Below are positions 14,831 through 64,000 of a DNA stretch of 64,000 nt, in pieces. A program made the translations under genes and the position numbers. The notes under the pieces were generated by a model that was not told where the DNA came from, did not search any database, and was given only the letters and a program-made list of their open reading frames with translations. Position 1 is the first letter of the stretch; the number at the start of each line of letters is the position of its first letter. This DNA comes from Antedon mediterranea (lineage: Eukaryota; Echinodermata; Crinoidea; Comatulida; Antedonidae), in assembly GCF_964355755.1 (NCBI RefSeq), contig NC_092671.1:10923001-10987000 (forward strand), in the 5' to 3' direction.

Positions 14831-17517
14831 TTTACCTATCTAAACTATCAGAACCAATATTCTAAACACTGAGTGGATGATTGATCAATTCAAAATAGAA
14901 TCATTGGTATAACATGAAACGCTGTTAAATTCATTGATAGGTTCTGCATGACATGGTCAGACTGATCACGAATCACACATAATACACAATATTCTTTCGA
15001 ACTGACAGATGATAAGGAAGATCTTATATTTAAAGTAACAACTTATTGGAAGAAAAAAAACAGTAGAACTTAGAACTTCATGAGCCACTGAGAAAGCATC
15101 GCTCTAAACCTTTGCGGATTTCTATAAGGCAACTGTTTCGATAAAGTATATAAAAACTGACAGAAAATCTGCTGATCAACCATTGGAGTATGATCATAGC
15201 CCAATTTTAATATCTTTAACCAAATATGACTTCACATATCTTGATGGATGGCGTTGAAATACCGACAGATGTTCCAGAAGAAAACTTAAAGTAAAAACAT
15301 GATGGTCATGCACTATAGGATGCAGTAAACATGGCTGTAAACATTTGGTGACTATGCAAGTATTTATTCAAGTTACCTAGATATTTCGTCATTTTGTTGT
15401 ATTTGATCATTACATTGGAAAGGGGTGGATAAAAGCAGTGACACGATTGAAAGGATAGTCCCAATGTACTAATCTGTACTTCCGTATGTGTTTTGGGCCA
15501 CACTCATCGGTTTGGAGGAGAACAAATATCACAAAGTTTTTAGACATTCTTTATGTCAATAACAAAGAGCTTGCAATTATAAGTTGATGTTAATTAATGA
15601 TATGCACTTTGTAACAGTAGCCTTCAAAAGTATGGACGATGTCTGGTATAGTGAACAATAAAGTGGTTGAAAGCCTATTAAGAATAATCTAACCAGCTTC
15701 CATGCTATTACAGGTTGCAGCACGTCATTATTTGCTGGTTATGGGAAGAGGTCATACTAGAAATCATTTGTAACGCATCCACTCCTTGTAAATGGAATTG
15801 ATTAAGATTAAGACTTTCCACGTACAGTGTACACTAAAGTTTAATATTGCCAAATATATGGTACTCTTGAGCAGAACTGTATAATAACAGACTACTCTTT
15901 GGTGTTACCTCCATCTAGACTCAGTGACCATATACCATTAACACTAGTGATATATATTTCCCTTAAATATTAAGTATTTCACTTCACTCAATAAATATTT
16001 AAGTACCTGTATTTCTACTTCGGGAAACACTTAAAATTAAAAAAAACTCGCCTATGGTGAATACAGACATCATAGAACCTAAACACACGAGCCAACTATC
16101 AGGCCTATGTGGCCTAAATGAATCGGGTCGTTTGGAAGCCCCTAACCCAGTAGTCAGTTTGGAACTTGTTACATGTGTATGTAAACTAAAGAGCCAGATG
16201 AAGTTGTTACAGAAAGCATGCATATGTGGTTGTGATTCAATCGTTTGCCGTTACCCAGATGGCCAGTAGGCATTATATATCAGTGCTTGAAGAAATACCC
16301 ACCTCAGAGCGTTACCTCCTTCCATCCCAGAAAATTTTCGAATATTGGCATGTGCCCATGCCGCCCATTACTCCCAACCCACAAACCCTCTGTGACCGTT
16401 TTTAAATGAAATTTAAGACATTCCAGTAGGCCTCCAACAGCTTAAACCTCTATTTTACCATATTTGACCTTATAACCTTGAAAATGACCTTTGACCTGAA
16501 ATTTGAGAGCGGCATCCATCCCTATCTTTTTTGTCATCCCATAAGGGATATATTCCACATAGTAGAGCAGTTAACGCCATAAAAATAGCCAAGTTGTGCA
16601 CTTTATTACCAAAGCATGAAACTTTCCACAAAGTTTCTTTGATGTATATAGATTCAAAATATCGGGAGGTGCCAAGTGTCCAACGTCCGGTATGGCGGCC
16701 ATCTTGATTTCAAAATGGCCACCATAAAAACAAAAAATGTTCATATCTTGGCAACTATAAACAGTAGAGACTTGATTCTGGTGTTAAATTGTTCACAAAC
16801 CACATATTTCTATTTACTCTAATGAAAAGTTTCGTCCAAAAATGACCGAAAATGACGTTTCTTCCAGTTTGACCTTTGACCTCTTATCTGTATATCTCAG
16901 TAACTACTGATTATTTTCAATCGATTTTGGTGTCATTTATATTTGTAGTAATGAAACATTTTCACATAAAGTTACTGGAAATACAATTTATAACCTTTGA
17001 CATATATAATTATGTGAACATACTGTATGTGGTTTAATTGGTATAAATGCACCTAATTTTTTACCAAAATAAATGACACGGAATTATTATTCTGAATTTT
17101 TAACTTTTGATGTGATAGGATAGGTATAAAGTATGACAGATCACTGAGCTCATCTATGCCGACATGTTTGCTAAACTGTGATGTGTCAATCGTTTTTTTG
17201 TTACATCGAAAAAAATGTAGGCCTACTCCATTTTTATGGTAATGGACCTTTGCTGTAAACCTTTCATCTGAATCCTTTTCTTCGATTTTCTCTAGTCATT
17301 GATTTTTTAGCAAAATCCGAACTAAATCAATTCGTAAAAGACATCTCAATATAATTATTCAAGTAATCCTCAAATTAGTGACATGGACCTACAATATACT
17401 GTTCTGTACAAGACCTGTTTAGGCATCCACCTGTGGGCTTTCACTTTAAAAGTCTTGGTTTCCTAATCATACAAGAAACAATGTCTAATTTAATCAATCA
17501 AAGTAGTGGGTTCAGAT

Positions 17518-18486
17518 AGATAAAGAAGGGGGTGTAAGACCATCCACAGACAAAGAAGGGGTTGTAAGACCATCCACATACAAAGAAGAGGGTATAAGAC
17601 CACCCACAGACAAAAAAAGGGGGTGTAAGACCATCCACAGACAAAGAAGGGGGTGTAAGACCATCCACACACAAAGAAGGAGGTATAAGACCATCCACAG
17701 ACAAAGAAAGGGGTGTAAGGCCATCTACAGACAAAGAAGGGGATGTAGGACCGTCCACAGACAAAGAAGGGGGTATAAGACCATCCACTGACAAAAAAAG
17801 GGGTATAGGACCATCCACAGACAAAGAAGGGGGCGTAAGACCGACCACAGACAAAGAATGGGGTGCAAGACCATCCACTGACAAAGAAAGGGGTATAGGA
17901 CCACTTACAGACAAAGAAGAGGGTATAAGACCATCCACAGACAAATAAGGGGTGTAGGACCATCCACAGACAAAGAAGGGAGTGTAGGACCATCCACAGA
18001 CAAAGAAGGGGAGAAGACCATCCACAGACAAAGAAGGGGATATAAAACCATCCACAGACAAAGAAGGGGGTATAAGACCATCCACAGACAAAGAAGGGGT
18101 GTAAACCATCCACAGACAAATTAAAGGAGTCCAAGACCATCCATACACAAAGAAAGGGGTGTATAAGACCATCCACATACAAAAAAGGGGTTTAATACCA
18201 TCAACGGACAAAGAAAGGGGTGTAATACCATCAACAGACAAAGAAGGGGGTATAAGACCGTCCACAGAAAAAGAAAGGGGTGTAAGACCATCCACAGACA
18301 AAGAAGGGGGTGTAGAACCGTCCACAGACAAAGAAGGGGGTGTAAGACCATCCACCACTGACAAAGAAAGGGGTATAGGACCACTTACAGACAAAGAAGG
18401 GTATAAGACCATCCACAGACAAAAAAGGAGGTGTAGGACCATCGGACCATCCACAGACAAAGAAGGGGGATGTAAAACCACCCACA
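17518..18486. repeat. 30-bp minisatellite, about 32 units
   Basis: Tandem array of a unit like GACCATCCACAGACAAAGAA followed by GGGGGTGTAA. Units are mostly 30 bp with 1-3 bp length variants. It sits exactly between two long inverted arms. Because 30 is a multiple of three it leaves long open frames on the minus strand (17490-18538) that are repeat artefacts. Confidence 0.95.
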
Positions 18487-18886
18487 GAATCGATTGAAAA
18501 TGACCAGTAGTTACAGAGATATACAAATACGAGGTCAAAGGTCAAACTGTAAGAAACGTCATTTCCGGTCATTTTTGGACGAAACTTTTCATTAGAGCAA
18601 ATAGAAATATATAGTTTGTGAACAATTTGAGACCAGAATTAAGTCTCTAATGTGTATAGTTGCCAAGATATGAACATTTTTTGTTTTTATGGTGGCCATT
18701 TTGAAATCAAGATGGCCGCCATACCGGACGTTGGACACTTGGCACCCCCCGATATTTTGAATCTATATACATCAAAGAAACTTTGTGCCAAGTTTCATGC
18801 TTTGGTAATAAAATGCACAGCTCATGTCATTAACTGCTCTACTAACATGGTTGCCTGCTATTAACAGAAAATGCCCCCCATGATGA

Positions 18887-38600: not shown

Positions 38601-41600
38601 GGTACAACAAGGGTAATTTGAAGTCAAAATATAAATATCTTAAAATAAGATTAAGATTTAGAATGTAATGTTTATTTTATTATTTAAACATATGTGGTTC
38701 CCGTTGGGGAGGGGGAGGTGGTGGCCTGAATATATGTTGCTTTAAATACTCACCTCCTTCACCCAATCAATTTGGTTTACGATAAAATCGGTTGCATCTA
38801 AAATCGGTCGCGTTTGAAATCGGTCGCGTTTGAAATCGGTCGCGATAAAATCAACTTCCGGTATTTTGTATGGCGCGCCGCTAGAGCTATACGTTTGATG
38901 ATATCGGTCGCGTTTGAAATCGGTCGCATTTGAATCGGTTGCGCTATTTTGTATGGAGCGAGATGTATGCTAGCGGGATATACATTTTCTTCGTTTATAT
39001 AGATTTAATTGATATTTTTTAGGAACTAGATTATTTATGTGGATATTTTCTATTTTGGTTAATAAATATTTATTATCTTTTTTTTTTTTTTATTTCACAG
39101 GTCTCGGAGAAGGACTGTGTCTTTTCAAAATGGCCATTTCTATACACGTTTAAATATTTTATTAGGCATATAATAATTTACCTCTATTTTATTATGTACT
39201 GTTATTAATATATTATATAGAGAATATACGTCTGCATCTTTATGCAAACAATTACGTAAAAGAGAACAATTTATTTAAAAACAATAATTGTTAAATGATG
39301 TATAGCCCGTAAAGCCAGCGTATCTATTTTTATACTTATGCATACTGTGGCAGATATATCATATCCATGTTGTTAACAACTTACTATTGGATCACCTTAT
39401 TTTTTAATTTCTATTTTATTTATGTCTGTACGTTTGTAGGATAATATTAAGTATAGGCCTATAATGATTATTGTTGAGGCAAATCACGTGTATATTTTTA
39501 TTTCTAATGTTTACAATAGGCCTAAAATAGTTTCTAGTAAAAAGGATTATTATATGCGGATCATTAAAAGGCGAGTTAATGAAATAAACCCCGAAATATA
39601 ATAGACCATAATTTCGTGGATGCGCCTTCTATGATCGTGCAGACGTTAACTGCACGTTATTTTGCCGACGGGGATTCCCTTTTTAAAAAAAACATGCACT
39701 AGTGTGTCAAATCATGGACAAAACACGTACAATCGTTGTCCATGGCCAGGTAAAGATGAGGTATAGGCCTATTACTAATAAATAACCATACGTAAACATC
39801 AATAAGCCTCCTGCACGTGTTTTTGTGAAACCTAGTTCCATGGTGCAACGATGTATATAATTTACGTATATACGTCGGCGATACTATAGTTTTTAATTTG
39901 AATATCTTTTATTTCTTCATTTATAATAATCACTTAAGTACCACTTAGTGTCTCACATCTGTACGCCGTTCGTAAATCTGAATGTTTAAATATCCGTGCA
40001 AGATTAATAATAATAATATTTATTCGGTCATCAATGTGAAAATAACCAGGAATGAGAATAGGCTAAAGCCCAAACAGATTCTGCACTCACTCCATACAAT
40101 ACAATCAGTTGAAATTGTTTGTGAATCTTTTATGTCATTTGGTATTTGCTCCCATAGTCTAGGAAAGGAAACAAATACAGAATTATGAAAAGTATTGCCT
40201 TTCGAATTCCAACGTAAAAGCCTACCCGGACATTTTTCACTAGTTTTAATATACTCATTGAAAGAATGGGGACAGTAACCTTTCAACACCTTAAATCCTA
40301 ATGAAAGTCTATGTAATTTAAACAAGTCATCAATAGATAATAATTCAAGCACTTTCAACCTATGAAAATAAGATGTGTCCCAGGAACCTTCCTTTCTAAA
40401 CATTATTATCCTTGTTGCTTTCCTTTGTATACTTTCTATTCTATTAATATTTGATTTCTCAAATGGTGCCCACATTGAACAACAGTAGGTAATCACTGGA
40501 AGTAATAGAGCTTTGTATAAGTTCAACATAGCTAACCAGGACATATTTTTACTACATTTTGAAATGAAACCAAGCAATCTGCTTGCTTTACAACATATAT
40601 AATTAACTTGTGTATGACAAGACAACGAACTATTTACATAAACACCTAGAAATTTGAATTCTGTAACTTTAGGAATATTGTCTGATTCTATGGTATAATC
40701 CCAGTTAACTATCTCTTTACATCTTGTAACATGCATTACGGCGCATTTGACAGGATTTAAGGGAAGTTTGTTTACATTTGCCCATTTAGCAATTAAATCT
40801 AAATCCTTTTGAAGCAATTTACAATCATTATTGTTATAAATAGGACGTGATAATGTGTGATCATCAGCAAATTGAAAAAGAAATATTATTTACAATATCA
40901 CTTACATAAATCAAAAATAAAAGAGGGCCCAAAACTGACCCTTGTGGTACCCCTGAAGTAACATTTACCCACTCTGACTTTTCTCCTCTGTAAATAACCC
41001 TTTGGCGTCTATTTGAAAGAAAATCTGTAATCCATGCATTAGTGTTTCCACCAATGCCACAGTTATTAAGTTTCTTAATTAATCTTTTATGAGACACCTT
41101 ATCAAATGCAGACGAAAAATCAAGAAAAATAATATCAATATTTTTACAGCCTTTAAGTTCTAAGCTCTGTGCCCATGAATGAAAAACCTTTGAAAGTAAA
41201 AGTTCAGTACTATACATTTGTCTAAACCCAAACTGATTTTCTGAAAGGATATTATTATATTCTAGATATTCCCTTAAGCGATAACAAAGCAATTTCTCAA
41301 TAATCTTACAAATTATGGGAGTTAAGGACACTGGACGATAGCTTTTCATTTCGTCTTTGGGTTTTCCATTTCTTTTGAAAATAGGTACAACATTTGCATC
41401 CTTCCATTGTTTTGGTAAAATACCTTTTTGTACAGTTAAATGAAAGAATGTACATAAAACATTATCCAATTGTGCCTTACATGACTTTAAGAATATTGGA
41501 AGCAAACAATCAGGTCCTGGTGATTTGGATACATTTAACTGTGAGAGGGCATAAAATACCTCAGGCATCACAAAGGGTTCACATTCAAAGTTGGTAAGAC

Positions 41601-44232
41601 AATCTATTGTATCCAAATCACAATGCTGATCATTATCTATGCAAAAGTTGTTTACAAATTGTGTATTGAAAAGATTAGCCAACACCTTAGCATCAGATAC
41701 CATTGTGTTATTTATCTTAAAGCTAATAACATCTGAGTCATTTTTTATAGACCTTATATACGCCCAGAATTGTTTTATATCAGTTGTAGCTTTGTTTGAA
41801 ATATTTACAACATAATCCCGATGGCTACAATATATTGACTTTTTTAATTCCCTGCTACAAGATTTGAATTTATTTATGCTTTCTTCAGTTCCTACTTGTT
41901 TAGCAATTTTGTACAACTTTCTTTTCTTTGTGCAAAGCTTTTTGATTTCTGGAGTTATCCAGGGAAAAGATTTCGATTTTTTACATTTCCTAGTTGGTAC
42001 AGATTTTGAAATTGCAAAATTGATAGTACTAGAAATACTTTCCCATATATCACTAATATTATTATATTGGAAACAATTCTCCCAATTAAAATTATCTAAT
42101 ATAGTCTGCATTTTTGAAAAATCAGCCTTTTTAAGAGCATATACAATTTTAGTTATGTCCTTAGCACGTTTATATGAAACTTTAACAGAGATCTCAACTG
42201 CTTCATGATCACATGATTCAAAATTATAAATTGTACGACATTTTTCAATCAGTAGTGGATTAGAAACAAATACTAAATCTAAGAAATGTCCTTTACTATC
42301 ACGTGTAATATACGATGGTTGTTTTAAGACTTGAACTAACCCAGTAGAGTTTGTTGCATCTAATAGACCATTCGCTAGGCTAGTTAAACCACTACTTTTA
42401 TCTACCTGTATATCATTCCATTCAATATGTATATTAAAATTACCAATAAGCGAAACCCATTTGTACTGAGTCATTTTTATTTAAACTTTTTCTAAATTTG
42501 TGTATAAAGCATTTGTGTATTGAATATTGGAAGATGGTGGTCTGTAATATACACCTATAAGAATTTTTCCAATACCAGTGTAACACTCTAACCACAATAA
42601 CTCCAGTATATTATCATTTAGTTCATGACACTCAGATGGTTGTAATGATGTTTTTACAGCAATAAGTACTCCCCCACCATGTGAGTTTCTATCCTTTCTA
42701 AAAACTATATAATCGTTATTAAATAGTTGACTATCATAAATGGAATTGTCAAGCCATGTTTCTGTCATAGATATAATATCATAAAATGAAGAATTAAATC
42801 GAGAATTTATATCATGCAACTTATTTTTAACACTTCTTACATTGCAATAGAATATATTTAGCTTGTTTTTACTATCAGAACCTAATTTTGAATCTATCAT
42901 AAAATCACTTTGGTTTACATTATTACTTAAACTATTATCATAAGTACATTCAGCATTAATTTTAGCATTAGAGAATCGTGTCCACCTTTATTATCCATCC
43001 ATTATTATTCTCACATCTAGGCCTATCATTGTACATCATAGTCCTACTGTATAGGCCCGGTAGATTGATTTATGAAGGTATATTTAATATTTTATTAGAA
43101 TTATCCTAAAACCATGCTCACGTATTAAGAGTGGCGGATATCGAACGTAAAAATCATTGTCATACATCATCTTTCTTTATTGCATAAACCTCATTGAGCT
43201 GGTATCCACTTGCAGGTACAGAACTAGTTTCGTAGTTAACTGTGATTAAAAAATACGCAATAGGCGCGTCTACTTGTTCAATATTAAATTATTTCAACAT
43301 TTTCAAAACTTTAAACAGTGGCATGCTAATCTTTTCAAAAACTTAAACAATATTCAATAACACTTTTTAAAACGATTTTCTAAACGAACATATTACAATT
43401 ATTCATTGACACCTGTAAGATAAAATGAAAACACAAATTATTTATAAATAATGAGATTAATATTTATATTTACTGTACTTAAAAAATAATAACGATCGAG
43501 GTAAAAAAAATGTTAATAGTATAATTCTATATTCAAAACTAAATACTAAAAACATAGCGTTTTCATTAAAAATGTATCTAGTGCGTCCCATGCAAAATAG
43601 CGTGACCGATTTCAAACGCAACCGATTTTAAACGCGACCGATATCATTAAACGTATAGCTCTAGCGGCGCGCCATACAAAATACTGGAAGATGATTTTAT
43701 CGCGACCGATTTCAGACGCGACCGATTTCATCTGACACCATCAATTTAAATAAGTCTAGGCCTAGGCTAGGCCCTAGTACTAAACTAGCCTAGGCTAGTC
43801 CCGGCCTAGATTGACAGATACTTCTTTACAATTTTTTGTACAATTTTAAAATTAAGTGTTTATGACTGTCCATACCTCATACACACTTGTAAGCCTAAGT
43901 CGATAAAATACAGGTACATAGCAATGTGCGGAAATCATTGTCATTAGAGGATATGAAAAAACTACAACCCAGAATTCTGTTCCGAAACTATAACATTCAG
44001 CAGGCGTACCAAGCAAAGCAATAGCCGACATCCAGCTAGCTAGCAAGGAGAACCCGACGGGAACGAAGCGCATTGACCGGTCTCCCATCAGAAATGTTTG
44101 AGTGGTTTGCTGTCCCCCGTCTTTAAATCCATAGTATATGCCAATAATAGCAGAAATAACCAAAACAAGTGAGAATACGATATAATCGACGACCGTAAAG
44201 CTCGCTACCTCTCCTGTTTCACTGGAAGACAT
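29608..44232 (-). CDS. SLC5A8/12-like sodium-coupled monocarboxylate transporter, complete, 613 aa
   Basis: Fourteen exons, all in phase: 44232-43876, 38525-38460, 37921-37870, 37247-37180, 36279-36125, 35416-35276, 34802-34673, 34322-34234, 33677-33550, 32353-32199, 31913-31726, 30655-30555, 30261-30140 and 29697-29608. Human SLC5A8 and SLC5A12 are 610 and 618 aa. SLC5 signatures in order: IGIYYGFKDGGQQT, FLMGDRSM, YLELRF, GGLKAVIWTDVFQ, GGTFTWLGTYGCNQASVQRY, FSGALSTVSSGLNSLAAV and TLEDVIKP, plus a last membrane segment SAIGCLTVVIIGLITSF. About 13 membrane helices are expected. The product would import short-chain monocarboxylates (lactate, pyruvate, nicotinate) with sodium at the plasma membrane; SLC5A6-like vitamin or iodide specificity cannot be excluded from sequence alone. 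The extracellular loop after exon 11 has an N-glycosylation site (NVTY). The protein ends EDNV, unlike the TRL end of mammalian SLC5A8. Intron 1 (5.3 kb) is filled by a repeat carrying a LINE. The start MSSSETG was chosen over an upstream in-frame Met because the family starts just before the first helix. Confidence 0.95.
29820..29965 (-). repeat. tRNA-derived SINE in the last SLC5 intron
   Basis: The minus strand begins GGGCATGTGGCGCAGTGTGT with a box A-like TGGCGCAGTG and a box B-like GATTCAAATCC. It is followed by a tail containing GGCAAGGCACTTACATTTGC and CCACCCAGGTGTATAAAT, a layout common in SINEs of marine deuterostomes. No intact tRNA fold is present. Confidence 0.75.
32490..33125. 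mobile_element. Putative MITE-like element in SLC5 intron 9
   Basis: A GC-richer island inside the AT-rich intron. Outer ends share inverted ACACCGCC/GGCGGTGT, and the interior repeats ACCCGGG, CCCGGGTT and GGTGTAAA motifs on both strands. There is no coding sequence. The boundaries are approximate. Confidence 0.45.
33210..33460 (+). pseudogene. Non-LTR retrotransposon C-terminal relic in SLC5 intron 9
   Basis: The plus strand translates with breaks to IIQSVLSYCLICNYGN, KKRLNKIVKRAVKLIVDMP and YLDELYSDRSIQAALRIMG, the conserved tract after the RT domain of fish and invertebrate LINEs. It is opposite in strand to the SLC5 gene and ends about 90 bp beyond the 3' end of SLC5 exon 9. Confidence 0.65.
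33713..34025. repeat. Tandem duplication (about 155-160 bp x 2) in SLC5 intron 8
   Basis: Two almost identical units, each containing AAAACTCTGGGAAGGAAACA, ATATTGCACATATAACTATA and TCCCCGAATAAACGGCCCC (second unit CCCCCGAA). The array lies about 35 bp upstream (in transcription) of SLC5 exon 9, so it forms most of the acceptor-side flank of that intron. Confidence 0.9.
35856..36016. mobile_element. MITE family M2, copy 2, TA-flanked
   Basis: AAGCTTGGTTCCCACTAG at the left and TAGTGGGAACCACGCTT at the right, with TA on both sides (35854-35855 and 36017-36018). The interior matches copy 1 (GTAACGCAAGGACGTAAACG) with a deletion in the middle. It lies in SLC5 intron 5. Confidence 0.85.
36440..36625 (-). 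repeat. tRNA-derived SINE in SLC5 intron 4
   Basis: The minus strand reads GTGGCTTGGTGGTTATGATG (box A-like) and GGGTTCAAGTCC (box B-like), followed by a tRNA-unrelated body. It is flanked by GAGTGGAGTTGT and its near repeat ACAACTCCACTC. It is not an intact tRNA gene. Confidence 0.7.
38770..43740. mobile_element. 5-kb element with long terminal inverted repeats in SLC5 intron 1
   Basis: The left arm, about 38770-38960, contains iterated AAATCGGTCGCGTTTGA, then GTATGGCGCGCCGCTAGAGC and TATACGTTTGATGATATCGG. The right arm, about 43580-43740, is the inverted copy (ACCGATTTCAAACGC, GCTCTAGCGGCGCGCCATAC). The arms are roughly 160-190 bp and 85-90 percent alike by eye. The only coding content is the LINE at 40.0-43.0 kb, so the DNA-transposon body is probably non-autonomous or was interrupted by the LINE. 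Confidence 0.7.
40006..42990 (-). mobile_element. Non-LTR (LINE) retrotransposon, nearly intact, 5' truncated or partial
   Basis: The minus strand codes an apurinic-type endonuclease (NIFYCNVRSVKNKL; MTETWLD; GVLIAVK; GVYYRPPSS; LIGNFNIH; DLVFVS) and then a reverse transcriptase (KSPGPDCLLP; FKRNGKPKDEMKSYRPVSL; FLDFSSAFDKVSH; GVPQGSVLGPLLFLIYVSD; FADD catalytic box at about 40,860). A thumb/C-terminal part follows (ITYCCSMWAPFEKSN, IQRKATRII). One in-frame TAA (42483-42481) splits the endonuclease, and one frameshift in a T run just before FADD (about 40,872) splits the RT. The 3' end is an ATT repeat directly after the last stop, as in CR1/L2-type elements. The upstream part before 42990 lacks an ORF1 or start. 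Confidence 0.9.
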
Positions 44233-44939
44233 TTTTTTCTGAGGAAAAACTGTAGGCCTACGGCTACGTACGGTACTCACACACGTGCAGTTGTCTCTGT
44301 TTTGTGTTTGAGCAAAGAATATATATCACAAGAATGAGTAATCCGCGATTTTCCCTGTAACAATAATATTGTCCATGTGGTAGGGCGCCGCCATAAGTGT
44401 GGATGTATCTGGGATGTATACAATTTTTTGTGACGGTTTCACTAATCAAATGCTGGACCACCGGTAGTATTTTCATGATAAAAAATGTTATCAACTACAT
44501 GCCAACATCATGCTAAATACTATTTGGATATTTAATTGTTCGTTTTATGCCATTTATTTAGTAAAAACTGCCGTATAAACAGTTTTCTTTATAAACCGGG
44601 CGCTACGATAGCGTGACCGGACGTGTTGGTGTTTACGCGTTTTCACGAAGGATAGTTTAATAATATTCCTATATTTAACTTGTTTCTGGTAAAACAAATA
44701 AATGTTAATGACATTTAACATTTTGTCCTATTAATCATGTATTTTATACTAATTTATATCATAAAAACAATACTTAATTTACCGGGCGTAGAGTAGTACA
44801 CGGCAATGGTAAAGAATAGGCCGTGCTAAGTAACGATTTGTTGATTTTTGGTGTTGCTGTGTTAAGCCTTTTTTGTGAACTAACTTAGCATGTTAGTAAA
44901 TAATTGTCTGTAAAAGTGAATGTGTTAATAAATATACAA

Positions 44940-48482: not shown

Positions 48483-48899
48483 AAAATACAATATTATAAG
48501 AAAAAAGTATTAGTAGATAAAAAAGGTTTTATTAAATGATTAGAATAGACTGATTATTAAATTACCTCACCTAATATTCGAGGTTGTTATAAAGTTACAT
48601 GAAGTTGAATTATATATTTATTAATTACAATATAGTTTGATAACGGATTTATTGACGATATTGTTAGATTTAGTACATTTTATTGTAAGTACGTTTATTG
48701 TATTTTTATATAGTTTTCTACATGTTGGAATAAAGCTTCAGAAGCCATATATATTTCCCTCAGCTTGCGCTTCGGGAAATATAATATTCCCTCGAGCAAA
48801 ATATAATTCCCTCGGGGATGTCAAATATTTCACCTCTAACCAGGCAATATAATAATAATAATATCCTCTGTTGACTTCTTTCTTTTAAATTAGAAAAAT

Positions 48900-49988
48900 A
48901 TGGAAAACGAAAGCAGTTACTTCGAAGAAGACTGGGATGCAATGATTGAACCATTGTTGTATACAGACATGGAAAGGTATGTGATATACTGCATTCTGCC
49001 GATCATTGTCATCGTTGGAATTGTTGGCAACTTATCCACCGTCATCATCCTCACCACAAATGCAAACATGCGTAACTCCCTCAATATTTACTTGACAAAT
49101 CTTGCTATTGCCGATAGTCTGTTTCTAGTCGTCGCTCCGGTATTTTCATGGGTTGCCATAAGCCAAACACCATTGCATGTATTCTATGATAACGGCGGTT
49201 ATTCTGCGGAATACTGTAAGTTCAACACGCTCATAGTTGATTCCACGTATATGGTATCGGCAACCTTGATACTGGCTATTTCTGTCGAGCGATTTTTAGC
49301 GATCACCAAGCCGTTGAAATATCGTTCGTACGTGTCCAAGAAGCGCACTGTGAAAATATGCGTCGCAATATGGATTCTCTCATTCGCGTACCAAATTCGA
49401 AATGTTGTAACAGGTGGAACATATGAGTATTCATATCCTTGGCCTGATATGTGGAACGGTGTTCCGAACACTTCGTCCTCTTGCATACTGTGTAGTTACG
49501 ACTTTAGTGACGAAACATGTAAAATCTTGTACTATTTCAACGAAGCGGAGTACGTGTTATATTTAACATTTCTTACATTAATGATACCACTGTACGGTAT
49601 GATAGGCTGCTCTCTTTTCAAACCTTGTTCAAAGAAAACGGAAATCGCCGCAGCGGCAAACCGCACTAACTTCGAACGGAAAGCATTGACAACGGCTACA
49701 ATCACGGTAGTCATATACGTTATTCTCACAGCTCCGATAAATTGTATCTACATGTACGCTTTCAGAGGCGGTACAAATTGGGATCTCATTTCAAAGTTTT
49801 CGAGCGTCTTCAGGTACTTGGCGTTTGTTAATTCTTCGATAAATCCCATAATCTATAACATATCGAACGAAACGTACCGAAAGGCATTTCTCAAATTATA
49901 TGGATTTTCTTCAGGAACGGCACCACAAAAAGCGAATGTCCAAAATCCTTCTCGGAAATATGTTTCAACGATTAGCACTAAATGTTGA
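48900..49988 (+). CDS. Rhodopsin-class (class A) G protein-coupled receptor, 362 aa
   Basis: Single coding exon. The ATG follows a splice acceptor (TTTAAATTAG at 48,885-48,894), so a 5' UTR intron is likely. Seven hydrophobic segments are visible: about 28-50 (GN motif, GIVGNLSTVI), 61-85 (NLAIADSLF), 104-135, 150-168, 213-238, 264-288 and 297-322 (NSSINPIIYN, an intact NPxxY). Conserved Cys are near 106 (EYCKF) and in loop 2 (SSCILCSY). The DRY box is ERF (SVERFLAITKPLKY), and helix 6 lacks the CWxP motif (VVIYVILTAP). The N-terminus is acidic with one NxS site (NES). The type is a peptide-like receptor of the TRH/neuromedin/somatostatin neighbourhood; ligand unknown. The divergent DRY and CWxP motifs and the intronless coding region fit lineage-specific orphan receptor expansions in invertebrates. 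Confidence 0.93.
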   Translation: MENESSYFEEDWDAMIEPLLYTDMERYVIYCILPIIVIVGIVGNLSTVIILTTNANMRNSLNIYLTNLAIADSLFLVVAPVFSWVAISQTPLHVFYDNGGYSAEYCKFNTLIVDSTYMVSATLILAISVERFLAITKPLKYRSYVSKKRTVKICVAIWILSFAYQIRNVVTGGTYEYSYPWPDMWNGVPNTSSSCILCSYDFSDETCKILYYFNEAEYVLYLTFLTLMIPLYGMIGCSLFKPCSKKTEIAAAANRTNFERKALTTATITVVIYVILTAPINCIYMYAFRGGTNWDLISKFSSVFRYLAFVNSSINPIIYNISNETYRKAFLKLYGFSSGTAPQKANVQNPSRKYVSTISTKC

Positions 49989-51256: not shown

Positions 51257-52169
51257 TAGCCAACGTGTATACGTGCTGTAACGTAAATGTCTATTTATCT
51301 AATAGGCAGAAACCTCATGAACGTAATTGATCATAAAAAATAAACATTTTTATATTTACAAACATTTTATATGACTACAATCAGTGTTCTGGGTAAAAAC
51401 ATAGTAAATATAATGTTTTAATAATTTTAAACAGCAGTACAAAAATGGATAATATAATATTTAATAACAATGCGTAAAGAAGAAAGCAATTATAGCGATG
51501 TCATGTTTGTGAACAATAAGTATTTGTGCGTTTTGTTTAGAATAGGCCTTTTTTTCTAGTAAGTATTGGTCATATTATTACTGGAATCAAAACACAGTGT
51601 CTATTATGATACAATATTATAGCGTATAATATGATATTTTAATTATACATTATAATAGTGTATTGTGCTTATTATTACTATCATGTACTCTTACCTTATC
51701 GACTAAAATATCTGGTATTTAATAATCAATTGACATTATTATGGGTTATAAAAACGTTGTATGCTTTCAGTTTCTGGAACTCGAACAAAATGAATAATAA
51801 CAGACTCATTTATTTCTATTTATGGTATTGTAAATTGAATTGTAGTTATTAAAGGCGTATGAACAAATTGTGCTAATATATAATATTTATCTGTTTAAAA
51901 AATACCATGGATTTGAAATACCACAGCAGAAATATTCGCTTGAAACATGATGATCCATTGTGGAATGACAGAAACAGATCCAACGTTACTTCATAGCCAA
52001 GTAAACATTTCATCCCAATTTGACTTATCCTTCTGCCATGCACTGCAAAAAATAAAAACATTTTAAAATTATAGTCGATGATTATAACATCATACGTTGT
52101 CCAATCATCATTACCACCAACGCCACCGTATCATTACACATGCATTATATTTGTCACAAATGCAATCAT

Positions 52170-52600
52170 CTTTGTCACCAACACCATTTTATCACCAACA
52201 CCATATCGTCACAAATAAAATAATTTGTCACCAAAACCATTTTGTCACCAACACTATTTTGTCACCAACACCATTTTGTCACCAACACCATTTTGTCACC
52301 AACACCATTTTGTCACCAACACCATTTTGTCACCAACACCATTTTGTCGCCAACACCATATCGTTACCAACACCATGTTGTCACCAACACCATGTTGTCA
52401 CCAACACCATGTTGTCACCAACACCATTTTATCACCAACACCATATCGTCACAAATACAATAATTTGTCACCAACACCATTTTGTCACCAACACCATATC
52501 GTTACAAATACAATCATTTGTTACCAACACCATGTTGTTACCAACACCATTTTGTCACCAACACCATATCGTTACAAATACAATCATATTTCTGTCACGA
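52170..52600. repeat. 17-bp minisatellite
   Basis: Tandem 17-bp unit CACCAACACCATTTTGT with variants (CATGTTGT, CATATCGT, ACAAATACAATAATTTGT). Because 17 is not a multiple of three and the unit contains no stop in any register, all three plus frames stay open for hundreds of bases. They encode the same 17-residue periodic peptide; these ORFs (52,097-52,677) are artefacts. Confidence 0.93.
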
Positions 52601-52679
52601 ACACATTCATTACTATCGCCAATAACATCATGATCGTCGTCACCAACCACTTCCAAGAACTTCACACCAACAAATAATA

Positions 52680-54176
52680 TATTATCGATTAGCTTGAACA
52701 TCATCACTACAGTTCCTTTATCTTACCAATACGATCCACACAATCACCCAAGGCCAGAAAAACAAGGTTATGATGAGATGCAGGAGATGGTTGACTTGTG
52801 GTCTCCTACAAAAAAAAAAAAAAATAAACGAGATATTACTATATCTATATTACCTGATAGCACTATTCAAGAGACAACTCAGTTATGAGGTTCTACTGTA
52901 ATATTATCTAAATAAAACAATGATTTAGGTATAGTAATATATTTGAAATTAAAAGTAGCTGGTTCAAATCCTGCTAAACATCTTGGAAAACTATTAGGCT
53001 CTCGTTGACCTTAAGCTCGACGATCGAACAAATTAATAATTTACATAATCTAATTATAACGCTTAACAGGTACCGGTATATTATATGCACTTTGAATATA
53101 AATGCAAACTATTATATTATACCATGGAGGTATTTTATACCTCCATGATACCTCCATGATTATACAATACAAAACACAGAAGAAAACCAATTATTGGAGA
53201 CACCTTGGGGACATAACCAAGTGTACCCTTAATACGCGCGTCCCGTGAATAGAGACCGGTCGTTCAAAACGTCGTTAAAAAACATGTATTCCATTATTTC
53301 CGATTTATGGAGAGGTTCTATTATTTTAGTTAAACAAAACGAAAGTTGCATTGTTAAAGCGATTTTATTGAATATTATATTGTCTTAATTCAAACCTCAC
53401 CAACCATGTTATCTAGATTGTATTTGTTCCGGACACGTATGCAAACTTAAACAATATTCAATATGTAAAAGGGATTTTTGGAAAGAATTTTAAGTAGTTG
53501 AACATTGAGGGAATGTTTAAATACTATATTAGTCACATACGTCTATACAGTATTAACAAATATTATCGTACGAACAGCTCATAATATAAATATCATATCA
53601 ATCGATATGTATTTTTACGATAAAAGTAACAATACGTATCGGTGATAACAAAATACTGTTCTTTCAATGCGGTAACTAAGACAGATACTTATACTGTATA
53701 TAGACGGATACAACACGACCGTTCTCAGAATGGATATAGTGTATTACGTATTTAGGATATGACAAAGCCAAAATGATACTTTGCAAAATTGCTAGTGACA
53801 GCTCAATAATCGTAAGATAATGGCTGGAATCTAGTCTATACTATTGATTTTTACGCTTGTAATAATCAAAACAAACTAAATCAATAGGCCTACGTATATT
53901 TACAAATCATATAAATTCAGAAAGGCAGGCCTATACACAGAATACGAATATACAGCAATTTATTTATATTATACCCGTATAATAAATGAAAGGCAGCCTA
54001 CGGTTTACTGATACTGAAGACAATATGATGTTGATAAAGTACCGTATATCAGCATATTATTATATAGGCCTAAACACTGTTCTTATTCTATTGTACAATT
54101 TTATTGTAGATTAGGCCTACGTTGTAATTTTAATAATCTCATTTTTTGATAATTGAATAAAATAAAGTCAACATAC
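52680..54176. other. Intergenic or intronic DNA downstream of PPxY gene 3, nothing firm
   Basis: The missing 3' exons of the minus-strand PPxY gene 3 should lie here or further down. I found no membrane-helix exon. A candidate last exon, acceptor TTTTTTGCAG at about 52,050, would encode CMAEG then stop, but it lacks independent support. A perfect palindrome (ACCATGGAGGTA...TACCTCCATGAT) sits near 53,120-53,150. Confidence 0.35.
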
Positions 54177-60152: not shown

Positions 60153-63100
60153 ATGTCTAGTCGTAAGAAGAAGAAAAAAGAACTTGAACGCTTCAAATCC
60201 GAACTAAAGTTACGCGACTTACGCGATGACGTCATTGAAATCTTAATTAACGAAGGATTCAGTCGTTTGTCCGATTTACGAGGTTTGGAAGTGGAAGACT
60301 TGGATAAAATACAAAATCTTCAACTGGCACAGTATGTGATTTTGAAAACAAAAATTAAAGAGAAATGGAGTAAGGTGTATGACATGGAGAGCAGCAGTGA
60401 TGGTGAGAGCACAGTAGAAAATGTTGAAGGTAAAGAGTAAAACCTGGAAAGATGTAATTTATTAAAACGATGTTATTTCATTTACATATTTTTTAAATGA
60501 TTTTATAAGGATTAGGCCTACAAGAAAAAAGGATGCAAAATTTGCTAAGAGTTAACAAAGAAAAATTAGCATACTGTACTATACTGTACAAACCCACTAA
60601 TAACAGCCTATCCTATAAATGTATTCAGTATACCGTATCGGCTTACATTAAAAAAATATTCTAAATCACAAATATTTTTCTGAAAGAATGCATTGTCCTG
60701 GTGTGTGGATATTTGCATATATATTATTTTTAACGTAATTAGGTCTACTGTTACAAATGTTTTAAATATCCGAACGTTCCTAGATTAGAGGTAGATATTA
60801 CGTATTATTCAATTCAATAATTACAACTTATTATCTGCCTTGAACAGAAAAATATGAGCCGGAATTGGAATCCAGAAAAAGGCAGAAGAAGCACAAAAGA
60901 AACTCTTCGAAAGAAGGTCTTGATAGTGGTACTTCAAGCTCTAAAACGGAAGATCACAAAGCTTCGGGTCAACGAACAGGGGTCAAGAGTAAAGCTTCAA
61001 CTCAAACCAAACCCGACAAAACTTCGGATATAGAGAGTGGCCAAAATACACAAGATAACACTCGCGCCCAAAATCCACAAAGTACTGGGGCTGGTGAAAA
61101 AACAGAAATGAAGAGTGATTTTAACAAAAGTAAACCCAAGGAAGACAAACATGACAAAACGTCGGATATAGAGAGTAACCAAAATACACAAGATAACACT
61201 TACGCGCCAAAACCCCAGAGTACTCGGGCTGGTGAAAAACCAGAACGAATGAAGAGTGATTTTAACACAAGTAAACCTAAGGACGACAAACATGAAAAAC
61301 CGTCGACAGAACACGTTTCAGATATTGAAGGTATGATTTTCACAATACTAAGTTTGTGCCCATTTTAACCATGATAAGTCGCCGAATAATCTTATTAATT
61401 TTATATTAAATTAGTAACTGTTAGTCAAATTTTCTTTTTAAATACTCTTCGCAAACAAAATCCAATTATTAAATACCGTAAATATAGAAATAATCATTAA
61501 TATGGTGTTGTGCTTAACTATGTTTGTACCCATAGACGTTGAACAGTCGAACGACTTGATAGAACACTTCAATTGCAATTTAGCTAAAAAGTTTTTCAAA
61601 CAGAAGCGATATGATAAAATGGAAGAAGTGTTGGTTAAAGTGGACAGGCAGACGAAATCAGCATACGGTAGAGGAAGATTCGCCACGAAGATATCACAGG
61701 GGTGTAATGATTTTGCTGAATTACATGACTGCATTAACCATCAGATGACAGATGTCAAAGTTTTGCATGAACTGGCATGTGCGCAGTTCCTTTCCCTTGC
61801 AGAGTCTCACAGAGAGATATTGAAAGAGATGGACATGGACACAGAATGTACTATCTTTACTGAATGGGCTAGTCGCTTAGAAGTGATATTCATGGAGAAT
61901 TCGCCTCTTGAATACGGTTCACTTGAATGGAAAACTGTGATTTCCAAAACAGAGGAAGTGGAAAGGTTTTTTTCATCTCTTCCAATTCCAGCAAGAAATG
62001 TCTCAAAATCATACATTCTGTTAATGTTGCAATTTATTTGCCGTATGTGGCTGTATCGAAATCATCTTATTCCAGAAGATCAATATGGTCTGCTTTTAGT
62101 CGCTACATTCGCTCTTCCGCTGTGTGAATCTGAGCTTGTGACGTCAAAATATTTTTGCGCTGTAAAGCATGACATGTACGTGCACGCTGCAATAACCATC
62201 GGGTGTAATATCTCGAATATGCGGTTAGCTGTTAAAGATTGGTATGATGAATTTTATAGGTTCACAAAAAGATGTGAGCAACTCTACGACGAAGGGCTCA
62301 AAATGAACAAAGATATTAGATCTGAGGATGATACTAGAAACTTGGACAAGTTTACTTCCTGTATGTATAGCTTTATTTGAAAATTATATCTTAATAACAG
62401 GCCTATAGTGTGTTTTATCGTTTGTACAGCTCAGACACCACATTACATGTTTACAGCATTATTCTCTTTATTATACTTTTTTTTTATCGAAATTAATTTG
62501 TTTTTTTAAACATTTATTTTTAAAGTGGTGCAATCACGACTGAAGACAGCTGATCTGCATTTTGGCATATGCCAAGATGACTACATACCAGACAGGACCA
62601 CAGACGAGCACCATAGACTGACTGAGCAAAATATAACCACTATTTTGAGTCATTGGAATGACAAAAGCTATAAAGCCTTCTGCCAGTCTATCACTGACGC
62701 CGAAAATCAACTTAAAGATACTGGTTTTAGGCTACAAGTTGGTAGTTGGTTATCTCCTAGATACAAGGACGCATGTAATGTTTTAAATGGTTCTTATAAA
62801 CAACTTGATAGTTCACAGTCTCTCCTTGACAATCTGCGTGACTATCTCATGGAACTCGTAGTTGACTGCAGGCGACTTCTGAAAGATTTGAAGATCTACA
62901 GCAATGATTCAATGACAGACTGGGTTGAAGTTTTCTCTCGATTTTGTTCCGCTGATGATTGTGTATTTGGATCTTCTGAATGGCATGCAGTATTGGATAG
63001 AGCTAAAACAACAGTAGAAAATATGCCACGAGGAGCAAATATTATCGGACGAACAATTACACAAATGTATGTTCAACTTTTCGTAGAGTTAATGAAGAAG

Positions 63101-64000
63101 GCATTTCTAACATATCAGCAAATAACGCCTAAAGACCGACTTGGCCATGTTCGTTTGGCTTTAATTAACATGACAATGGTAAAAAGTCCTCTTCTGTCAA
63201 GTAAATGGTACTCAAGCATGCGATTTAATATATACTTGTGTGGGCTAAGAAGCATAGCATCATGTTTACTAGAAGCTGAGAAGCCTAATAAGGATACGTT
63301 CTATCAAGAATACAAAAACGTAAAAGAAAACATTGACAGTTTAATTGTAGAAAGTCGAAAATTCAAATTGCCGTTTGCCTCAAAGGAAGACTTGGAAAAG
63401 TTTATAGCTCTCCATAAAGGTAAATACAACAATATATAAATTATAAACCAAACTATTCGAAATATTAAAATATATATTTTATTAGGCCTATTTGTCGTTT
63501 TACTCTAGTAGTAAGCTATACCATTTATTAGTGGTCTCTACTTATATACATTACATACAATGCAACACACATAATATGTCATTAACATATAAAGTATAAT
63601 AATGTTTTTATACCTATCGCCTTTTCCCTGAAAAAAAAATTGATTTGAATTGATTAAAATTTCATTTAAAAACAATTGACTTAAAACAGGCTCTAACACT
63701 TTTATGTCTTTCAAAGACGTCAAGCAAAACATGACTGGTAGGTCACATTCTCGAAGCAAAGTGATTGCATCTGATCCTGATGTATCACGACTTGTTGAAA
63801 CGGCAGTCGCTAAATATCAACAAAAGGACTACGATCAGATGACCAAACATCTAGATGATGGTGAAAAGAAAGATGGATCATGTGATGTGCGATTGGCATT
63901 TGCTGGAAATATTTCTACTGAATTCCATCTTGTTGTCACTTTCAGCAATAATATACCCGAGGATAGTGGACTTTCGACTGTCGAGGAAACTACTCAGAAA
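60153..64000 (+). CDS. SAM-like domain plus tandem unknown helical domains, continues past window
   Basis: Five exons: 60153-60429, 60848-61330, 61536-62360, 62526-63419 and 63690 to the edge. All introns are GT-AG and phase 1. Exon 1 encodes a lysine-rich start and a SAM-like helical bundle (ELKLRDLRDDVIEILINEGF, LSDLRGLEVEDL). Exon 2 is a charged S/K-rich linker with two copies of a 46-47-residue repeat (KTSDIES.QNTQDNT, KSDFN.SKPK.DKH). Exons 3 and 4 each encode one roughly 275-300-residue mostly helical domain. The two are distant homologues, sharing GS.EW..V......VE, then Y.LLMLQF/Y.QLFVEL and ALPL..S.L.SK/MVKSPLLSSK. Exon 5 starts a third copy (VAKYQQKDYDQMTKHLDDGE). I do not recognise the domain, and no transmembrane or enzymatic motif is seen. 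Cytosolic scaffold or signalling, perhaps innate immune, is speculation. Confidence 0.85.

Follow-up and report, generated by a model that had tools for sequence, protein, structure and literature searches.

Gene Structure and Genomic Context

The window analyzed here is a 64,000-nt stretch of the Antedon mediterranea genome (contig NC_092671.1, positions 10,923,001 to 10,987,000 of the forward strand; contig positions are given below with the prefix C2). At its right edge lies the 5' part of a forward-strand gene, here called gene A, whose spliced product across exons 1 to 5, rebuilt directly from the sequence, is open over 930 residues inside the window. Exon 1 (60153..60429, 277 nt) carries the start codon, a Lys-rich N-terminus, and a SAM-like five-helix domain, and ends in phase 1. 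It is followed by intron 1 (60430..60847), exon 2 (60848..61330, 483 nt), intron 2 (61331..61535), exon 3 (61536..62360, 825 nt), intron 3 (62361..62525), exon 4 (62526..63419, 894 nt), intron 4 (63420..63689), and the 5' part of exon 5 (63690..64000), all on the forward strand. The four introns are all GT-AG and phase 1, in agreement with the exon boundaries and phases implied by an earlier reading of the sequence alone (the sequence-only reading). Exons 3, 4, and 5 encode the helical domains R1, R2, and R3, and exons 2, 3, and 4 are symmetric (1-1).

Exon 2 encodes a 161-aa low-complexity linker rich in Lys, Ser, Glu, and Thr, which is presumably disordered. It is therefore a Lys/Ser-rich linker and no copy of the repeat. 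In gene A the linker includes the basic sequence RKRQKKHKR together with two imperfect units of 46-47 aa (TSDIES...), whereas that of the neighboring paralogue, gene B, has one such unit. TRF reported no tandem repeat between 60000 and 64000, although the linker has these two diverged units at the protein level.

The gene continues beyond the window, outside the view of the sequence-only reading. Exon 5 (R3) runs to about C2:10987553 (window position 64553) and is followed on the forward strand by the exon of R4 (C2:10987768 to about 10988557), a micro-exon of 17 nt, and, within C2:10989376-10989804, an exon encoding a Death domain. The suggestion that more copies of the repeat might follow past the window thus held on extension of the locus, but the total stops at four (R1-R4).

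The window also contains a single-exon rhodopsin-type GPCR (48894-49988, forward strand; PF00001, E 1.9e-36), a sodium:solute symporter exon just below the Pfam cut-off (43852-44325, reverse strand), and reverse-transcriptase-like ORFs of a non-LTR element (40020-42987, reverse strand), which differs from the element in gene C described below. Two low-complexity tandem arrays (17490-18541 and 52088-52677) contain long ORFs that are probably spurious, and the latter coincides with a strong dip in GC skew (52001-54000). The palindrome TAGGCCTA occurs 37 times in the window (1-64000) compared to 0.5 expected from dinucleotide shuffles and is dispersed (e.g., at 60513 and 63483); a literature search found no paper to explain it. 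Elsewhere, the genome carries the core of bindin, an echinoderm sperm protein (Pfam PF02084, E 2.3e-28, reading ...INDPYDLGLLLRHLRHHSDLLANIENPAVKQRVLDALNE...), which marks the animal as an echinoderm; a COX1 search aimed at the mitochondrial code gave no match.

The Helical Repeat

The three repeat exons in the window were described earlier as diverged copies of one domain, and pairwise phmmer comparisons place their homology far above chance. Among 12 repeat sequences copied exactly from the genomic DNA at five loci (the E-values apply to that small set), R1 matched R2 mostly at 1e-9 to 1e-18 and R3 at 1e-5 to 1e-16 (mostly 1e-8 to 1e-16), R3 matched R4 at about 1e-10 to 1e-12, and R1 matched R4 down to 1e-7 for the gene A copy, with non-significant values for the copies of genes D and E. 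Single-repeat searches of the 354-Mb genome also find the other repeat types (e.g., R1 finds R2 copies at 1e-10 to 1e-12), and among the best candidates scored, all genome matches to the repeats lie on the same contig between C2:10.776 and 11.033 Mb. The proposal of one domain of about 280 aa per symmetric phase-1 exon is upheld, and phase-1 repeat boundaries recur in paralogues D and E.

No family in Pfam, NCBIfam, PADLOC, or the PDB sequences reaches threshold with the repeat, and searches of PDB sequences with profiles of the repeat and of exon 1 returned noise only, so the earlier failure to match a named family persists in Pfam, PDB, and NCBIfam. Matches that came up in the Pfam scans of the gene family, such as those to DUF7905, Styelin, TseH, and DUF2408, were below the cut-off and judged to be chance. 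TPR models match two of the 12 repeats, both R1 paralogues, with a single motif (best E 0.0035); tandem 34-residue TPR motifs above the cut-off were absent, the best TPR_8 score being 17.8 bits against a cut-off of 25.7.

A structure prediction, which the sequence-only reading had proposed, was run on R1 (61536-62360) using AlphaFold2 with an alignment of paralogues and gave a confident all-helical bundle (mean pLDDT 91.2, pTM 0.89). Foldseek found no PDB match to this model at E<=0.001 (E >= 0.045, TMq at most 0.37), nor was there a match to viral protein structures at the same threshold. VIA-align gave Z scores reaching 11 over 113-180 residues, with TPR, 14-3-3, and Bro1-type helical proteins as the nearest structures, and such partial matches at Z 8-11 may, according to the tool's own note, reflect just a common arrangement of helical proteins. 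The repeat loosely resembles TPR, 14-3-3, and Bro1 proteins in being an all-helical antiparallel bundle, with weak TPR profile matches in the two R1 copies, but differs from them in falling under all curated cut-offs and in a Z too low to be informative for helical bundles. On the basis of the predicted model, we read the repeat as a TPR-like helical module of an undescribed family. R2, R3, and R4 probably have the same fold as R1, judging by their homology.

The N-Terminal SAM-Like Module

The sequence-only reading also described a SAM-like module fused to the repeats. The predicted model of exon 1 has five helices (pLDDT 78) and resembles the SAM domain of ASK3 (prob 0.94, TMq 0.60; SAM-like fold Z 7.4). 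In its five helices, with a long last helix, the model is like several SAM domains (ASK3, EphB2, Caskin), with Z about 7 to several of them; nevertheless, the nearest structures include SAM domains (ASK3, EphB2, Tankyrase, and Caskin) and HhH domains (NusA and RAD51) that fit about equally well, and Pfam scans up to E=10 and E=5 found no SAM sequence profile in exon 1. A Pfam match to LRR_EndoS was below the cut-off and judged to be chance. The module is SAM-like in its predicted structure and has no match to a Pfam SAM profile, and the label SAM-like appears fair, though not proved. Exon 1 has a counterpart in a paralogue (37% identity, E 2.9e-5).

Death Domain or Acidic Tail at the C-Terminus

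The Death domain (PF00531) downstream of R4 scores 33.3, 30.5, and 35.2 bits in genes A, B, and C, respectively, against a Pfam cut-off of 22.6. In genes B and C, R4 joins the Death domain in frame via the 17-nt micro-exon. In gene A, the R4 donor reads eight A then GGG, compared to 8 nt then GG in genes B and C, and is thus one base longer; whether spliced or read through, the gene A sequence meets a stop codon before the Death exon, so that this 1-base insertion would cut off the Death domain. The C-terminal position of a Death domain above the Pfam cut-off is shared with known Death-domain proteins, whereas the combination of a SAM-like module with four helical domains matches none of those found in a partial literature search, which also returned no paper on a SAM-like/helical-array/Death architecture.

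The Death domain is not universal in the family, as no Death match or Death exon was found after R4 in the distant paralogues D and E, which instead end in a short acidic exon (L067:1961-2176 and L010:2989-3201, both on the reverse strand). These tails have a conserved terminal motif (..NITGKQNVCVSNAQHITINL and ..FQIGALGLCIIDSQNITINM) in place of the Death domain. The end of the gene E tail, FQIGALGLCII, resembles the RHIM core and may be an amyloid or RHIM-like motif; however, a search with the RHIM profile (PF12721) gave nothing above the cut-off and no match at the gene D and E tails, and the RHIM-like reading is possible as a lead only. A Pfam match to E7 for the acidic tail was below the cut-off and judged to be chance.

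Across the genome there are at least 150 Death matches, many of them clustered, which suggests that Death-based signaling is elaborate in A. mediterranea. Dense clusters of Death-domain exons are found on other contigs (C3 at 19-25 Mb, C5 at 12-14.5 Mb, and C9 at 20.2-20.4 Mb). A partial second match to the Death exon downstream of gene B (L012:5851-5970, forward strand, E 2.2e-7) is probably a remnant copy.

Paralogous Loci and History of the Array

The prediction of a multi-gene family is supported by at least five paralogous loci (genes A-E) within 260 kb, each with four repeats R1-R4 in identical order; the number is a lower bound because only the top candidates receive a score in the genome searches. 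All five are on C2, with genes A, B (from C2:10994424), and C on the forward strand; the reverse strand holds gene D at about 10.776-10.781 Mb and gene E at about 10.807-10.814 Mb. Gene B alone has all parts open, from the SAM-like module and linker through R1-R4 and the micro-exon to the Death domain. In gene C, no SAM exon was detected, R2 is truncated, and a 1085-aa endonuclease/reverse-transcriptase-like ORF, apparently of a LINE, is inserted between R3 and R4 (L014:1096-4353, forward strand). No SAM exon was detected for gene D in the stretches read, and in gene E a deletion has removed 4 bases from R3. In genes D and E an additional phase-0 intron interrupts R4, and phase-1 symmetry is kept at their repeat boundaries.

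In a maximum-likelihood tree of 19 repeats, each repeat type falls on a single branch, with support of 98/98, 99/98, 100/99, and 96/95 for R1, R2, R3, and R4, respectively, and inside each branch the copies from genes A, B, and C separate from those of genes D and E. The tool warns of long branches meeting, so the order among the R types is tentative, but the grouping by position is well supported. Because the repeats cluster by position across the five loci, the array already had its four repeats before the two clusters diverged, and none has been added later. The array had been described as expandable, a view that the sorting of all repeats by position over the five loci (bootstrap 96-100) does not support; it appears instead to be ancestral, fixed at four, and not visibly expanding. 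The best explanation for its origin is an old exon duplication via symmetric phase-1 exons, with the locus now changing as whole genes duplicate and decay. The family also shows that repeat exons of this symmetric phase-1 kind can freeze at a set copy number instead of continuing to expand.

Pairwise dN/dS ranges from 0.20 to 0.54 for the repeats and from 0.73 to 1.05 for the Death exon. The purifying values for the repeats indicate that they are translated and constrained as protein. The Death exon, by comparison, appears to be under less constraint and faster-evolving than the repeats.

Potential Function

The combination of SAM-like oligomerization, a large helical array, and a C-terminal Death domain is probably that of an assembly scaffold working inside the cell. 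The scaffold role suggested from the window alone is plausible and is made stronger by the Death domain found beyond it. The accompanying term ‘receptor’ is not supported in the membrane sense, as the window part of gene A has no signal peptide or membrane-spanning stretch; its N-terminus is Lys-rich, and its highest 19-residue mean hydropathy (1.52) falls within the R1 helical bundle. Genes A-E represent a real echinoderm gene family, and our preferred reading, held with about even confidence, is that it encodes a cytosolic SAM/Death signaling scaffold that has four helical modules for binding and is possibly immune. In such a scaffold, the SAM-like module would mediate self- or hetero-oligomerization, while the four helical modules would offer a TPR-like surface for binding a ligand or partner. 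The resulting clustering would bring the Death domains together and seed their homotypic assembly with MyD88/IRAK/FADD/caspase-type adaptors, which could lead to an NF-kB or cell-death output. An immune role is plausible, with the Death domain and the context as its entire basis. Death domains also function in development and the cytoskeleton.

A rather unlikely alternative is a structural or trafficking scaffold, in which the SAM-like and helical modules organize complexes of the cytoskeleton, the nucleus, or membrane trafficking and the Death domain has no immune role, being merely a binding module as it is in ankyrins and THOC1. Such a scaffold would fit the basic, NLS-like stretch in the linker, the presence of non-immune scaffolds among the nearest helical folds, the stronger conservation of the repeats relative to the Death exon, and the existence of paralogues (D and E) that do without a Death domain. 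However, housekeeping scaffolds are usually single and strongly conserved, whereas the A-E family is clustered and fairly fast-evolving, with many damaged copies.

We regard as improbable the alternative that the genes form an immune receptor family under diversifying selection, whose helical repeats bind pathogen molecules directly in the manner of NLRs but without an NTPase. The tandem paralogues show a birth-and-death pattern, and a Death domain is present in a genome with many other Death-domain gene clusters, yet the average purifying selection on the repeats argues against a hypervariable receptor, and no NTPase or transmembrane segment was found in the exons scanned. Echinoderm NLRs are cytosolic, clustered, and in many cases Death-bearing, in which they resemble the A-E family; the family differs from them in having no NACHT, other NTPase, or LRR above the cut-off in the exons scanned, and no NACHT or NB-ARC NTPase turned up when exons 1-4, R3, R4, and the Death exon were scanned with Pfam. 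Expanded repertoires of NLRs and adaptor domains are known in echinoderm-type animals (PMC9505182, PMC8195603), and the five loci found here, even as a lower bound, are far below known echinoderm receptor families, such as the 203 NLRs of the sea urchin (PMC9505182).

It is very improbable that this is a decaying local family with little function left and gene A becoming a pseudogene: the frameshift before the gene A Death domain, the losses and insertion in gene C, and the deletion in gene E and undetected SAM exon in gene D all fit decay, but gene B is open throughout, purifying selection acts on the repeat exons of genes A and B, and the gene A insertion adjoins a homopolymer and could have arisen as an error in the assembly.

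Returning to the cytosolic SAM/Death signaling scaffold, a more far-reaching and quite unlikely proposal is that the repeat of about 280 aa is an undescribed domain defining a new class of Death-assembly scaffold in echinoderms, and possibly in other marine invertebrates, in which one array is coupled to alternative C-terminal outputs, namely the Death domain in genes A-C and, in genes D and E, the short acidic tail with a possible amyloid or RHIM-like motif at its end. If the architecture is true at the transcript level, an unnamed helical domain would join the modules that animals couple to Death-domain signaling, and the cluster of five paralogues, which differ in the kind of C-terminus they carry, would offer a tractable case for the rewiring of a Death pathway.
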